A DNA stretch of 32,071 nt, taken from an uncultured Ignavibacteria bacterium. GTDB taxonomy: Bacteria > Bacteroidota > Ignavibacteria > Kapaibacteriales > Kapaibacteriaceae. Location of the stretch: the NCBI GenBank assembly GCA_903939735.1, contig CAJAIA010000039.1:1-32071 (forward strand), read 5' to 3'. Position numbers and translations under genes: made by a program. This document shows positions 9,387 through 32,071 of the stretch, piece by piece (within the stretch, counting starts at the first letter, position 1; every line of letters begins with the position of its first letter). Under the pieces are notes generated by a model. The model saw only the letters and a list, made by a program, of their open reading frames with translations, was not told where the DNA came from and did no database searches.

Positions 9387-10258
9387 TCGCAATCTTTGGT
9401 GCGGTCGCCCTCTGGACGTACGTGTCGTTGACACGCACGTATGAGGATGATCTGGATGTGCCTCTCGTTGTGATCTCTCCGCCGAATCAGGCGATGCTCT
9501 CCACTGTGCCATCAACGGTCCGCATTCGCATTCGTGCGACGGGGCTCCAGATTCTCAATGCGTTGTACTTCACAAAGTCTGTAGCATGCACGTTGGATCT
9601 TGCCTCAATGCAGAGTGATCAACCCTCGACGTACATCGCTGAGATCTCCGACTTGTTGAGTGGCGTTACGACGACGATTCCTATGCGCACACTCTCTGTG
9701 CAGCCCGAACGCATTACCCTCACGACAGGCGACCTCGCCGTAAAGCGCGTTCCTTTGCGCGTTACCTACTCACTGGCGTGCCGTCCAGGATTCATGCTCA
9801 CCGCTGAGCCACGCACGGATGTGATCAATGTGGAGGTTCGTGGATCTCGGAACGTTGTAGAAGGTCTCACGCATTGGAGTACCGAGCCAATCTTCCTCGA
9901 CGATGTGCACGAGACGCGCGTTGTCGATATTCCTGTGTCTGATTCTCTGCAATCGCTCATCAACATCCAACCGTCGCGCGTTCGCGTGACATTCTCCGTG
10001 CAGCAGGCTGCAGATCGGACGATCGCTGATGTTCCTGTTGGGTTTGGTGTTGCTGTCGACTCACTCCTTACACTCTCGCCACGGCGCATCTCAGTGGTGA
10101 TCCGTGGTGGTGTCGAAGACATTGCATCGATTACAGCGCGTGATCTCCGCGCTGAAATCAGCGAACTGTCACCCTCCGGCATCGTCCGACCTCGCGTTAT
10201 TGCCCCACCATCAGTAACGGTGATTTCGACATCACCGGCGTTCGTACGCGTCCGTTAA
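9350..10258 (+). CDS. YbbR-domain protein (CdaR-like)
   Basis: A 302-residue protein with one N-terminal membrane segment (about 9-27, STLLIAIFGAVALWTYVSL) and an extracytoplasmic part built of repeats of the YbbR type. Examples are PSTVRIRIRATGLQILNAL, DVINVEVRGSRNVVEGL and RISVVIRGGVEDIASI. In Firmicutes, CdaR with such repeats regulates the c-di-AMP cyclase CdaA; no cyclase gene is present here, so the role is unknown. The start ATG lies 37 bases inside dnaG, implying translational coupling. The stop overlaps the convergent queA stop by four bases. Confidence 0.75.
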   Translation: MAQRRFSISTLLIAIFGAVALWTYVSLTRTYEDDLDVPLVVISPPNQAMLSTVPSTVRIRIRATGLQILNALYFTKSVACTLDLASMQSDQPSTYIAEISDLLSGVTTTIPMRTLSVQPERITLTTGDLAVKRVPLRVTYSLACRPGFMLTAEPRTDVINVEVRGSRNVVEGLTHWSTEPIFLDDVHETRVVDIPVSDSLQSLINIQPSRVRVTFSVQQAADRTIADVPVGFGVAVDSLLTLSPRRISVVIRGGVEDIASITARDLRAEISELSPSGIVRPRVIAPPSVTVISTSPAFVRVR

Positions 10259-28749: not shown

Positions 28750-29628
28750 ATGCCAACGAAACGAACATCAAAGACCACTTCGTTTGCCGACTTGGTTGAG
28801 AAAGCCTATCTGGAAATGAGGAGGCTTTATGACGATTACATTACCAAACACTCAGACCGTAATGAGGATTCGCGCCGTGCTGGTGCTAAGAGAACGGCTC
28901 AGGAGTTACTTGAAGGTAAACACAGGCTGGCGCAGAGCCGTAAAGGTGGCATCAACCCGGTATTAAGTGGGATGAAGCGTAGATACGACAAATTCGTAGC
29001 AATGCACTATTCGCTTGGTGAATACCGCATAGCTGAATGGTTCGATTCTGACTGGGAGATATATCTCAGAGATGAGCATCATGTCGGTGACCCCGATTGG
29101 AATCAACGTGACATTAACAAGGATGTGTTACGTGCCTCCGAGCTCAAGCTCAAGGATGTTGAACGAATACTATCATACGATTTTGCCTATCGTAAAATTT
29201 ACACTGAACATATCGCGTCACTAAACCAATCTGAACCAGAGATTGAGGAGAATGAGCCCAATCATTACGTCACAGAGAATGTGCGAGTTCGACGTAAAGA
29301 TGCTTTTGATCGCTGGCAATGCACAGCATTCATCCTCACGCTTATAGATGCACTCACTAATCACACCCTCGCACACGACTTTACACCTTCGGATTTCTCG
29401 AGCACTGCAAACATCCACAACCTAAACGTTATGAAGTTCGCAACGTCTATCTCTCTTGTAACAGGTCTCAATGCTGACAACATCAAGAAAGACATCTACA
29501 AGTTGCGGAATGGCAGTGCAATGGACAGCGATGGAAGACTCTTAATAGTGCGCGAGTCATTACGTTCATTTGGCGTGAACATTGATACATCGTTGCTAGA
29601 TGAAGCAATCAATAGATCCGAGATCTAA
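28750..29628 (+). CDS. Unrecognised protein of the mobile element (292 aa)
   Basis: I do not recognise a family. The 292-residue protein is highly charged, with a basic N-terminus (MPTKRTSKTTSF). A long helical stretch follows (LVEKAYLEMRRLYDDYITKH, then RRAGAKRTAQELLEGKHRLAQ), then an acidic linker SEPEIEENEPNHY. The C-terminal part contains NVMKFATSISLVTGLNADNIKKDIYKLRNG. No signal peptide, membrane segment or catalytic motif is visible. It starts ten bases after the integrase and is probably co-transcribed with it, so a role in integration, excision or element control is possible. The C-terminal part faintly recalls regulators of Bacteroides mobile elements, but that is not established. 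Confidence 0.6.
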   Translation: MPTKRTSKTTSFADLVEKAYLEMRRLYDDYITKHSDRNEDSRRAGAKRTAQELLEGKHRLAQSRKGGINPVLSGMKRRYDKFVAMHYSLGEYRIAEWFDSDWEIYLRDEHHVGDPDWNQRDINKDVLRASELKLKDVERILSYDFAYRKIYTEHIASLNQSEPEIEENEPNHYVTENVRVRRKDAFDRWQCTAFILTLIDALTNHTLAHDFTPSDFSSTANIHNLNVMKFATSISLVTGLNADNIKKDIYKLRNGSAMDSDGRLLIVRESLRSFGVNIDTSLLDEAINRSEI

Positions 29629-29650: not shown

Positions 29651-29711
29651 TGGAGTGGGATGAAAAAATAGGACCAGTCGTAAGTTGAGGTATTCACCTC
29701 AAGGAGGACCG

Positions 29712-29975
29712 GTGAGAAAGAGTCAATACAGCGATGAGCAGATCGTAAAGATCGTGCGCGAATCGCATGCCCAGGGCGTAGCAGAGACTGCCAAGAAGTA
29801 CAAGGTCTCTGAGAATGCCATCTACATCTGGCGCCGCAAGTTCGGCGGCATGGAGCCGAATCAGGTTTCAGAGCTGAAGCGCATTATGCAGGAGAACGCC
29901 CGTCTGAAGAAGATCGTGGCCGAGCGTGATCTTGAGATCGAAGTGATGAAAGAGATCGCAGCAAAAAAATGGTAG
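29712..29975 (+). CDS. IS3-family transposase OrfA
   Basis: An 87-residue HTH protein (KSQYSDEQIVKIVRE..GVAETAKKYKVSENAIYIWRRKFGG), followed by a leucine-zipper-like helix (LKRIMQENARLKKIVAERDLEIEVMKEI) as in IS3-family OrfA proteins. It binds the inverted repeats. The start is GTG 29712 with a perfect AAGGAGG four bases before it; a TTG 27 bases upstream (29685) lacks such a signal. Its last codons run through seven A residues (29963-29969), where -1 slippage would fuse it to OrfB. Confidence 0.88.
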   Translation: MRKSQYSDEQIVKIVRESHAQGVAETAKKYKVSENAIYIWRRKFGGMEPNQVSELKRIMQENARLKKIVAERDLEIEVMKEIAAKKW

Positions 29976-30010
29976 GCGTATCTCAGCGAACGCAGGCCGT
30001 GAGATACGCC
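29963..30010 (+). promoter_or_regulatory. Programmed -1 frameshift signal of the IS element
   Basis: The zero frame reads A-AAA-AAA (29963-29969), a slippery heptamer. After a 5-base spacer, GGCGTATCTCA (29975-29985) pairs perfectly with TGAGATACGCC (30000-30010) around a 14-base loop. Slippage by -1 leads directly into the OrfB frame, whose first ATG begins on the last A of the heptamer. Confidence 0.8.
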
Positions 30011-30793
30011 ACAAGCCGGGGATTAAGCCAGCGACGGGCCTGCCAGCTGCTGGCGCTCACGCGAGCCCTGCTGACGTATGCCTATCGTATGCCTGAGCGT
30101 GATGCGCCATTGCAACAGGCCATAGCCGGCGTGGTTGCAGCACATCCTACGTGGGGCATACGCCTGATCCACGGCTGGTTGTGCGGGCAAGGCATGGTCG
30201 TGCCGTTCTCGCGCCTGCGACGCGTCTACAGGCAAGCTGGATACGCTGCCCAGTGGCGTAAGCGTCGCAAGAAGATTCGTCGTCAACAGCGGGTCAACCC
30301 TGTAGCCCAACAGCCGCACGATGTCTGGTGCATGGACTTTGCCGAAGACCGCCTGATCAACGGCAGACGCTTCATGGCACTGCTTGTCAAGGACGAGGCA
30401 ACGGCCTACGGCCTGGCTATTCGTGTTGCGCCATCGTTCAAGTCGATTGACGTCGAGAGCATCCTTGATGAACTCGTGGCCAAGCATGGTTGTCCTCAGT
30501 TCATTCGATCAGACAATGGCGGCCAGTTCATCTCCTTCGCTATTCAACGCTGGGCTCAAACTCGCAACATCAGCCTGGCATACATCCAACCCGGCAAGCC
30601 ATGGCAGAATGGTTTCGCAGAGAGCTTCGTCGGAACCTATCGCACAGAAGTTCTCAATGCCGATGTGTTCCATTCGATCGATGAGTCGGTTGTTGTCTCA
30701 TCTGCTTGGCTTCACATGTACAACCACGAGCGTCCGCACAGCAAGCATAACTATCAACCACCTGTGTCTGCGTTCACAAAGAATGCTGCATGA
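29969..30793 (+). CDS. IS3-family transposase OrfB (DDE integrase core)
   Basis: A 274-residue rve-type catalytic domain. The DDE triad is Asp123 (WCMDFAED), Asp182 (FIRSDNGGQF) and Glu218 (NGFAESFVG), giving D-x58-D-x35-E spacing. An N-terminal HTH_21-like region (TWGIRLIHGWLCGQGMVV) and a C-terminal YNHERPHSKHNYQPP complete the family pattern. It is in the -1 frame relative to OrfA and probably translated mainly as the OrfAB fusion; the ATG at 29969 could also give free OrfB. The frame is intact. Confidence 0.92.
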   Translation: MVGVSQRTQAVRYATSRGLSQRRACQLLALTRALLTYAYRMPERDAPLQQAIAGVVAAHPTWGIRLIHGWLCGQGMVVPFSRLRRVYRQAGYAAQWRKRRKKIRRQQRVNPVAQQPHDVWCMDFAEDRLINGRRFMALLVKDEATAYGLAIRVAPSFKSIDVESILDELVAKHGCPQFIRSDNGGQFISFAIQRWAQTRNISLAYIQPGKPWQNGFAESFVGTYRTEVLNADVFHSIDESVVVSSAWLHMYNHERPHSKHNYQPPVSAFTKNAA

Positions 30794-30869
30794 TCACTAT
30801 TTTCTAAACATTGAACTGGTCTAAATATTCGACCCTACTCAGTACCACCCCTAGGGTTACCCCTGGATT

Positions 30870-30905
30870 ATATCGCAGCATAACTTTTTAGAGGTAATGC
30901 GATAT
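30870..30905. repeat. Inverted repeat flanking the HTH gene start
   Basis: ATATCGC (30870-30876) and GCGATAT (30899-30905) are perfect inverted copies 22 bases apart; the second overlaps the start codon of the HTH gene. Between them lie TAACTTTT (7 of 8 to TAnnTTTG) and the AGAGG ribosome site. It may be an operator for the encoded HTH protein or a translation-blocking fold. Just upstream, ACCCCT is repeated at 30847 and 30859. Confidence 0.4.
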
Positions 30906-31158
30906 GTCCAGTTCTTCTCTTGCTCTTCAAATTGAAGAGCCCCTCATCGGGATCGATGAGGCTGCCTTGATAGTCGGGTTAAAGCGATCAACGCTTTACG
31001 CACTGACATCTAATCGGCAAATCCCCCATTTCAAGCGCGGCCGGAAGCTCTATTTCCGCCGCTCAGAGCTGATCGTTTGGATCACACAAGGCCGTCGTTC
31101 GGTCATCGATGGCTCAACCGCAGATAGCCACCTCTTGAAGCAGCGAGGTGGCAAATGA
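30904..31158 (+). CDS. AlpA/excisionase-like helix-turn-helix protein
   Basis: An 84-residue DNA-binding protein with a MerR/excisionase-type winged helix: IGIDEAALIVGLKRSTLYALTSNRQIPHFKRGRKLYFRRSELIVWI. Such proteins in mobile elements act as excisionases or activators of integrase genes (AlpA type). AGAGG lies nine bases before the ATG. The stop overlaps the start of a 33-codon ORF (ATGA). It lies just beyond the IS3 insertion and is probably part of the same element as the integrase. Confidence 0.8.
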   Translation: MSSSSLALQIEEPLIGIDEAALIVGLKRSTLYALTSNRQIPHFKRGRKLYFRRSELIVWITQGRRSVIDGSTADSHLLKQRGGK

Positions 31159-31256
31159 GTCACTTCAGACAAGAGTCCCTGCACGGGACGGGCTTCGCTA
31201 TCACTATGAGCCCTCGGGTGCAGATGTTTCACGGTGCCTGCCTGGGGCACCCATGA
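31155..31256 (+). CDS. 33-codon overlapping ORF of unknown function
   Basis: ATG 31155 overlaps the HTH stop (ATGA) and has GAGGTGG four bases upstream. The frame encodes 33 residues (starting MSHFRQESLHGTGF, ending FHGACLGHP), and its TGA overlaps the ATG of the next gene at 31253. The product matches nothing I know. The position with ATGA junctions at both ends and two hairpins inside suggests either a real small protein or a leader that couples translation of the primase-like gene to the HTH gene. Confidence 0.45.
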   Translation: MSHFRQESLHGTGFAITMSPRVQMFHGACLGHP

Positions 31257-31258
31257 AA
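31227..31258 (+). promoter_or_regulatory. Hairpin covering the start codon of the primase-like gene
   Basis: TTTCA (31227-31231) pairs with TGAAA (31254-31258), and GGTGCC (31233-31238) pairs with GGCACC (31246-31251) around a 7-base loop. The ATG at 31253 and the weak GGGG ribosome site are within the fold, so the start would be hidden until ribosomes reading the 33-codon ORF open it. A second imperfect stem, CTGCAC/GTGCAG with GGGCT/AGCCC, spans 31179-31223. Confidence 0.45.
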
Positions 31259-32071
31259 CACAAGAAAGCAGAATACGGCAAGAGGCAAAAATGCCCGTGC
31301 CACCGCATGAAACTCAATTATCATCCTTTGCTTGACGACCAAGGTCTTCCAACCGACGGCGGGAAGTGCTTCAGCCGTGCGTGTGGTGAACAATTCTTTC
31401 CTCCCACCAAGCCAGAGAGTAAATCAATGTTGACGAATCAAAACACAACGCAGCGCCGAGAGCACGTTTACCATAAAGCTTCGGGCGAACCGCATATGCA
31501 AGTCGTCGTTCTCAAGCACGCCGACGGAAGTAAAGAGGTTTTCGCAGAAAGGTGGGAAGGAGGCAGCTGGCAGAAAGGCGTAGGAGGCGTCGAGCGATTG
31601 CTTTACAAGCTACCACAGGTGCTCGAGCGCATGGCACAAGGTGGGACAATTTGCATCTGTGAGGGTGAGAAGGACTGCGACAATGCCGATTCTATTGGTA
31701 TTACAGCCACTTGCAATCCCTTTGGTGCAGAGAAGTGGACAGACGAAATGTCTGTGTTCCTAACAGGTGCACGCGTTGTGATTATTCCTGATCTCGACGA
31801 ACCTGGATGGTGCCACGCAAGAATGGTTGAGAAATCGCTGTTAGATGCTGGGGTTGCAAGCGTCGGCACACTTGATCTTCGCACGCTAATGCCAGATCTC
31901 CCAAACAAGGGCGATCTGAGCGACTATCTCGATCGAGGCGGTGACCCCGAGCTACTGCGGTCGGCTATCGAACAGACTGCCTCGCGCTGTGAGGACGTTA
32001 CTGACGAGTCGCCCCTCCCGCCGTGTCCACAGATTTTGTGGGAGACACTACCACGTCCACTTTGGGAGCTC
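31253..32071 (+). CDS. Zinc-ribbon and TOPRIM primase-like protein of the mobile element (partial, cut by window end)
   Basis: The frame is open from ATG 31253 to the last base (273 codons, no stop). The N-terminus has a zinc-ribbon pattern, Cys14-x-Cys16 and Cys39-x4-Cys44 (KCPCHRMKLNYH..GKCFSRACGEQFF). A TOPRIM domain follows: Glu137 in ICICEGEKDCDNA, then VVIIPDLDEPGW with Asp180/Asp182, and KGDLSDYLDRGGD near 220-235. Phage and plasmid primase-helicases have this order, with a RecA/AAA helicase domain next, expected beyond the window. An upstream GTG (31148) is in frame, but the zinc ribbon fits a start at 31253. It would initiate element replication. Confidence 0.75.
   Translation, partial: MKHKKAEYGKRQKCPCHRMKLNYHPLLDDQGLPTDGGKCFSRACGEQFFPPTKPESKSMLTNQNTTQRREHVYHKASGEPHMQVVVLKHADGSKEVFAERWEGGSWQKGVGGVERLLYKLPQVLERMAQGGTICICEGEKDCDNADSIGITATCNPFGAEKWTDEMSVFLTGARVVIIPDLDEPGWCHARMVEKSLLDAGVASVGTLDLRTLMPDLPNKGDLSDYLDRGGDPELLRSAIEQTASRCEDVTDESPLPPCPQILWETLPRPLWEL

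Follow-up and report, generated by a model that had tools for sequence, protein, structure and literature searches.

A 33-codon open reading frame (ORF) lies between a DNA-binding (HTH) gene and a replication-primase gene in the last part of the window, the whole stretch of 32,071 nucleotides that was analysed. Does this small ORF encode a protein, control the translation of the primase, or simply accompany an insertion? As read from the sequence, about 98 extra bases appear to separate the two genes in this one mobile element, and we investigated where these bases come from and what they may do.

Overlaps and hairpins at the HTH-primase joint

The HTH ORF ends with a TGA at 31156-31158 and the small ORF begins with the ATG at 31155. 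In the same way, the stop of the small ORF (TGA, 31254-31256) shares its bases with the ATG of the primase frame at 31253. The chain of HTH stop, small ORF and primase start through two ATGA overlaps, claimed in the original prediction, is thereby confirmed (Table 1), and both joints present the stop/start overlap of co-directed genes that is looked for in translational coupling. The extra stretch counts 94 nt between both ATGA, or 98 nt when one ATGA is included. The primase frame runs open up to the contig end, which cuts it off. A promoter and terminator scan of 30600-31500 gave no signal above chance bearing on the joint.

Table 1. Features of the HTH / small ORF / primase joint in the window
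Feature	Position	Strand	Evidence
HTH_17 / excisionase-like DNA-binding protein, 84 aa	30904..31158	+	PF12728 E 2.7e-13; TIGR01764 above cut-off
Hairpin 1, HTH 3' end, over the small-ORF ribosome site (GAGGTGG)	31127..31152	+	-14.4 kcal/mol alone; inverted pair I9
ATGA overlap 1: HTH stop / small-ORF start	31155..31158	+	sequence
33-codon ORF, proposed coupling leader	31155..31256	+	ORF list; no family or relative found in the searches made
Putative inserted stretch, 62% G+C, two hairpins	31159..31252	+	missing in 12/13 readable relatives
Middle hairpin CTGCAC...GTGCAG	31179..31223	+	weak alone, z -1.45
Hairpin 2, over small-ORF stop and primase start	31225..31260	+	-18.9 kcal/mol; z -3.36
ATGA overlap 2: small-ORF stop / primase start	31253..31256	+	sequence
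Primase: zinc-binding N-terminus and Toprim-like part	31253..32071	+	phrog_6088, phrog_239

The hairpin proposed over the primase start was also borne out. Hairpin 2, with arms of 7 bp + 7 bp, folds alone at -18.9 kcal/mol. For scale, 248 gene starts were drawn from about 371 kb of the same genome, taking the longest ORFs (150 aa or more) and letting the ribosome site decide the start; a local 36-nt fold as strong was found at 2 of them and at 0.5% of 2,880 random positions. These background rates, like those for chains and open frames below, carry no correction for the joint having first been picked by eye. In a 46-nt stretch its z value was -3.36, with 1 of 200 shuffles as good, whereas in a 96-nt stretch it was merely -1.62 (16/200 shuffles as good). 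The mean accessibility of the primase ribosome site and start was low (7.7th percentile), but the fold energy over -40..+36, at the 29th percentile, and the accessibility of the start codon, at the 41st, are ordinary and speak against a strongly masked start. Hairpin 2 is unusual locally, though some measures do not show it as extreme.

Hairpin 1, missing from the original prediction, has the arms GCCACCTC/GAGGTGGC and a z value of -3.90 in 37 nt. The best local fold at the small-ORF start was -16.1, which is matched by 4.0% of gene starts, and the whole insert (31159-31262) presented a z value of -2.78 and beat 199/200 shuffles. The predicted ribosome-site pairing was -7.8 for the small ORF and -4.7 for the primase, the gene median being -5.6.

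In the same 371 kb, neighbouring genes on one strand were screened for chains in which each of the two overlaps is -4 or -1, and 6 of 197 pairs showed one. Four of these six chains have -4 at both ends, one of them being literally ATGA at both. As an earlier start is available to the downstream gene in 4/6, some of these chains may be spurious. The window ORF gave zero matches at E 1 to the six other chains. With 6 of 197 pairs showing it, a chain by itself says little, and more weight falls on the hairpin that covers the primase start.

Several features were seen around the joint. A 292-aa hypothetical ORF follows the integrase (28750-29628) and has no Pfam or NCBIfam match; between it and the HTH gene lies an IS3-family element (transposase) at 29651-30841. 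The element has GTAC on each side, which by eye looks like a target duplication; its left end was not found by a pattern search with 3 mismatches, so that the left boundary is putative, and a related end is present on another contig of the same genome (G000:C41, about 9412-9469). Close to the HTH start there is a perfect 9-bp inverted repeat, GCTCTTCAA/TTGAAGAGC, at 30922-30940. In the second copy of this element, on contig C18 (L018, 1306-1427), the HTH gene is preceded by three 19-nt direct repeats with a CCCGACTATAATCGGA core, which are spaced 51-52 nt and may be likened to iterons or HTH binding sites. The window has no such excess of direct repeats.

The joint in related elements

An alignment of seven primase sequences was used as query against family, class and order genome sets, and matched 6/23, 10/391 and 12/123 genomes, respectively. 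The sets overlap, and together they hold 14 matching genomes, leaving out G005, a weak match that resembles a host DnaG-type match and was dropped. Also dropped were G002 (primase cut by the contig end), G354 (upstream HTH ORF not seen), two places of G413 (one with a broken frame, one without adjacent HTH), G084 (without adjacent HTH) and two places of G081, one of them a more distant long frame where about 1 nt separates the HTH stop from an ATG that follows. There remained, besides the window, 13 readable HTH-primase joints from nine genomes.

In 12 of these 13 joints the distance from the HTH stop to the next start is -8 to +2 nt and there is no extra ORF. The closest comparison is the C18 copy of the same genome (G000), whose primase is 77% identical and whose joint is -4 (TTGA). 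The joint is likewise -4 in both copies of G017, both copies of G379, G033, G004, G018 on contig C2 and, provided that GTG is the start, G407 (GTGA); it is -8 in G018 on contig C15 and +2 in both copies of G406. The 13th joint, in G408, has a gap of 164 to 176 nt between HTH and primase, with a 43-aa ORF that begins 11 nt within the HTH gene, ends 43-55 nt before the primase starts and is unchained. The small ORF of the window was found in none of the 13, and at the primase start of the six relatives that were folded the energy was -2.4 to -10.3 kcal/mol, compared to -18.9 in the window.

The original prediction had named homologous elements without the ORF or without the hairpin as a result that would refute it, and such elements were found. 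Since 12 of the 13 readable relatives lack the extra ORF and the six folded ones fold weakly at the primase start, the arrangement is not a conserved control device of these elements; such a device is at most a feature of the window copy.

Because HTH and primase join directly in 12 of the 13 readable relatives, we infer that a gain of 98 nt in the window is simpler than a loss elsewhere. GAGGTG, spacing and TTGAGTC in C18 line up with GAGGTG, spacing and ATGAGTC in the window, so that the start of the small ORF corresponds to that of the C18 primase, and ATGA overlap 1 has the same placement relative to the ribosome site as the C18 primase start. In the simplest history, about 98 nt would have entered the old joint and left an ATGA on both sides, the second ATGA being the old HTH/primase overlap. 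The insert with hairpin 2 is known from one assembled sequence.

The inserted DNA was then searched for elsewhere. The own genome holds no second copy, the sole other match being of 14 nt at E 2.9; phage and plasmid DNA collections gave no match, and two exact insert patterns did not match in viral contigs. Against 391 class genomes, four other genomes matched over 26 to 38 nt (E 0.001-0.007), where chance alone would give about 4 at E 0.01 per genome. These searches bear on the possibility that the insert works at the DNA level, with inverted repeats that form an HTH operator, a recombination or replication site, or a single-strand transposon end, and with an incidental RNA hairpin. Two adjoining inverted repeats do occupy most of the insert, and MIRU-like or hairpin-ended small mobile elements would resemble such an insert. 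The lack of a second copy in the own genome and of phage, plasmid or viral-contig pattern matches argues against it, as does the Rfam search of 30750-31500, which gave zero matches up to E 5, and we consider a role as a DNA site most improbable.

Wider scans were also made. No relative turned up in viral contigs when either the primase or the HTH protein served as query. With the alignment as query, 80 loci out of 142 were kept, six of which, when frame-translated, are zinc-type primases with no HTH neighbour visible. In genome contigs the first scan gave zero loci and the second 11. Of the HTH relatives (29 loci, L170-L198), one gave no match and the others are followed by varied neighbours; the overlap to the next ORF is -4 in L173, L175, L181, L185, L187, L193 and L194. 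In L194 this next ORF is 48 aa long and is unchained.

Coding capacity of the small ORF and start of the primase

The codon score of the small ORF, -0.139, is below that of 98.5% of 1,488 real-gene stretches; among 814 off-frame stretches free of stops it ranks at the 76th percentile. The ORF has no Pfam or PHROG family and no plasmid match. Neither homologues nor gene-like codon usage, by which a conserved small protein family would be recognised, were found.

A functional micro-protein, the second possibility raised in the original prediction, is consistent with the good ribosome site and the ATGA coupling. Short zinc-binding ORFs of 70-109 aa between HTH and primase in G018 (two copies) and G407 might also be taken as its counterparts. 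These, however, are the primase's own zinc-binding N-terminus, which the window primase retains, and the small ORF has a single cysteine. Together with the codon usage and the absence of Pfam, PHROG, plasmid or own-genome DNA matches, this makes a micro-protein hardly credible; as a main reading it was rejected, given this codon usage and given that the searches made returned no relative. The peptide itself probably has no role.

In the two G018 copies and G407, the zinc-binding part was observed as a separate ORF of 70, 72 and 109 aa (L021, L022 and L209, respectively), and in L022 and L209 the primase start overlaps it by -4 and -1 nt.

The position of the primase start was examined through the distance to the first CP cysteine. 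From ATG 31253 it is 13 residues, within the 12-16 found in nine relatives, while from GTG 31148 it is 48; this distance places the start of the window primase at 31253 rather than at GTG 31148. A start at 31148, named in the original prediction as a result that would count against it, would give the primase a 35-residue N-terminal extension and make the small ORF accidental. The primase frame is indeed open from 31148, and the upstream part of this frame has a codon score of 0.002 (6.9% of real-gene stretches, 93rd percentile of off-frame stretches) compared to -0.139 for the small ORF at the 76th, which points mildly to a coding past of the upstream frame and against a leader. The primase's own first 65 codons likewise score low (4.8% of real), so that the codon scale is weak for this element. 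The GTG lies inside hairpin 1, with a poor ribosome site (-1.5) and a start accessibility of 0.00, and the extension has no PHROG family match. We consider this start very unlikely; it was rejected on cysteine distance and ribosome site, despite the better codon score of its frame.

The window primase matches PHROG DNA primases, and a Pfam search of the part of the primase present in the window gave zero matches. The primase of one relative (L020) runs on into DUF3987. The last bases of the window (31945-32071) share a 126-nt identical run with the start of C18 (L018 from 121), which is probably an assembly break at a shared word; the remaining part of the window primase was not found in the same bin.

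A putative coupling leader and its parallels

The reading that we favour, with a modest preponderance of probability, is an insertion, specific to this lineage, at an ATGA junction; the ORF within it would serve as a coupling leader and open hairpin 2. In the family, HTH stop and primase start normally overlap directly; in the window copy about 98 nt would have been inserted at this joint, with ATGA on either side. A ribosome finishing the HTH gene would restart on the small ORF at the first ATGA and, in crossing it, would melt hairpin 2, which otherwise may block entry at the primase start. It would then stop at the second ATGA and restart on the primase. The small ORF would keep the old HTH-to-primase coupling and would probably make it obligatory. 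The good ribosome site of the small ORF (-7.8), the weaker one of the primase (-4.7) and the hairpin on the start are in favour of such a leader.

A neutral or damaging insertion would explain much of the same layout. The ORF and the second ATGA would then be by-products of the old overlap and of a frame-keeping length, and primase output would merely be lowered. The old HTH/primase overlap accounts for the second ATGA, and 24% and 31% of the off-frame 33-codon stretches taken from host genes contain no stop; with chains in 6/197 pairs, the small ORF could therefore be a by-product. Its codon usage is not gene-like, and the IS3-family element lies just upstream. Decay also seems common in this primase family, since related primase genes are broken in G004, G017 and G413. 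Against such an insertion stand a hairpin exactly on the start, rare at gene starts (2/248), a small-ORF start with a good ribosome site and a primase frame open to the contig end, and we regard this explanation as unlikely, though not negligible.

The broken genes were observed as primase genes seemingly interrupted by stops or sequence loss in L019 (G017), L023 (G004) and L207 (G413).

The leader reading draws on systems in which coupling occurs through an opened structure or through restarting ribosomes, as described in parts of the reviews PMC12548453 and PMC6728339. The nearest is the S004 leader of SGI1, which, in the passages of PMC7826253 devoted to it, shares its end with the start of repA inside a stem-loop. 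When S004 carries a stop codon, RepA synthesis is abolished, the reporter dropping from 118.8 to 0.7 units uninduced and from 1612.7 to 2.2 units induced, and S004 protein supplied in trans does not rescue RepA synthesis, according to the same passages (PMC7826253). The likeness lies in an integrative element whose leader ORF overlaps the replication gene, with an inverted repeat over the leader stop and the replication-gene start (PMC7826253); in the window, hairpin 2 is such a stem-loop. For S004-repA, leader translation in cis is required by experiment in these passages (PMC7826253), whereas for the window it is proposed from sequence. In that account, moreover, the overlap covers the last four codons of S004, compared to 4 nt in the window, the Rep is of IncN2 type and the leader comes first among the genes, while the window leader is itself overlapped by the HTH gene. 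ORF and structure kept in related elements, as an S004-repA-type system would have them, were not found for the window.

Translational control from HTH to primase, as put forward in the original prediction, thus stands as plausible for the window copy, given the masked start, the ATGA joints and the SGI1 precedent, and falls as a conserved property, since the relatives do not share it.

Within the same element family, short overlaps also link HTH, small ORF and primase in G018 and G407. The difference is that their small ORF is the zinc-binding part of the primase, while the window keeps that part fused to the primase. In phage f1, gene VII encodes a phage protein. The VII/IX pair presents a -4 overlap and a predicted hairpin near the downstream start that is opened by translation of the short upstream gene, in the section of PMC12548453 that treats it. 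Unlike the window joint, the f1 system is conserved and tested.

Mycobacterial MIRUs, with which Supply et al. 1997 is said to be concerned, offer a further parallel. According to the part of PMC12548453 on MIRUs, these short mobile repeats integrate at start codons, with coupling through a -4 overlap. The likeness consists of a short start-codon insertion with its own ORF coupled by -4 overlap and expression little disturbed (PMC12548453). Compared to its insert-free relatives, the window joint shows this start-codon insertion with its own ORF coupled by -4 overlap. MIRUs are repeated genome-wide, and no dispersed copies of the window insert were found in the own-genome search; therefore the insert is not filed as a MIRU, and its likeness to MIRUs is one of layout. 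A MIRU-like insertion outside mycobacteria, entering ATGA joints, carrying ribosomes through its own stop-free frame and forming a two-hairpin relay, is quite unlikely. If this were true, primase output would be strictly proportional to HTH translation.

The window joint is made of known kinds of parts in a one-off arrangement. A small ORF overlapped at both ends need not be a gene, as the comparison explains both ATGA sites here. If the coupling by the proposed leader is real, a single insertion between two adjoining genes can give rise to a leader ORF and a masked start together, and the amount of primase would be tied to HTH translation more tightly in this element than in its relatives.
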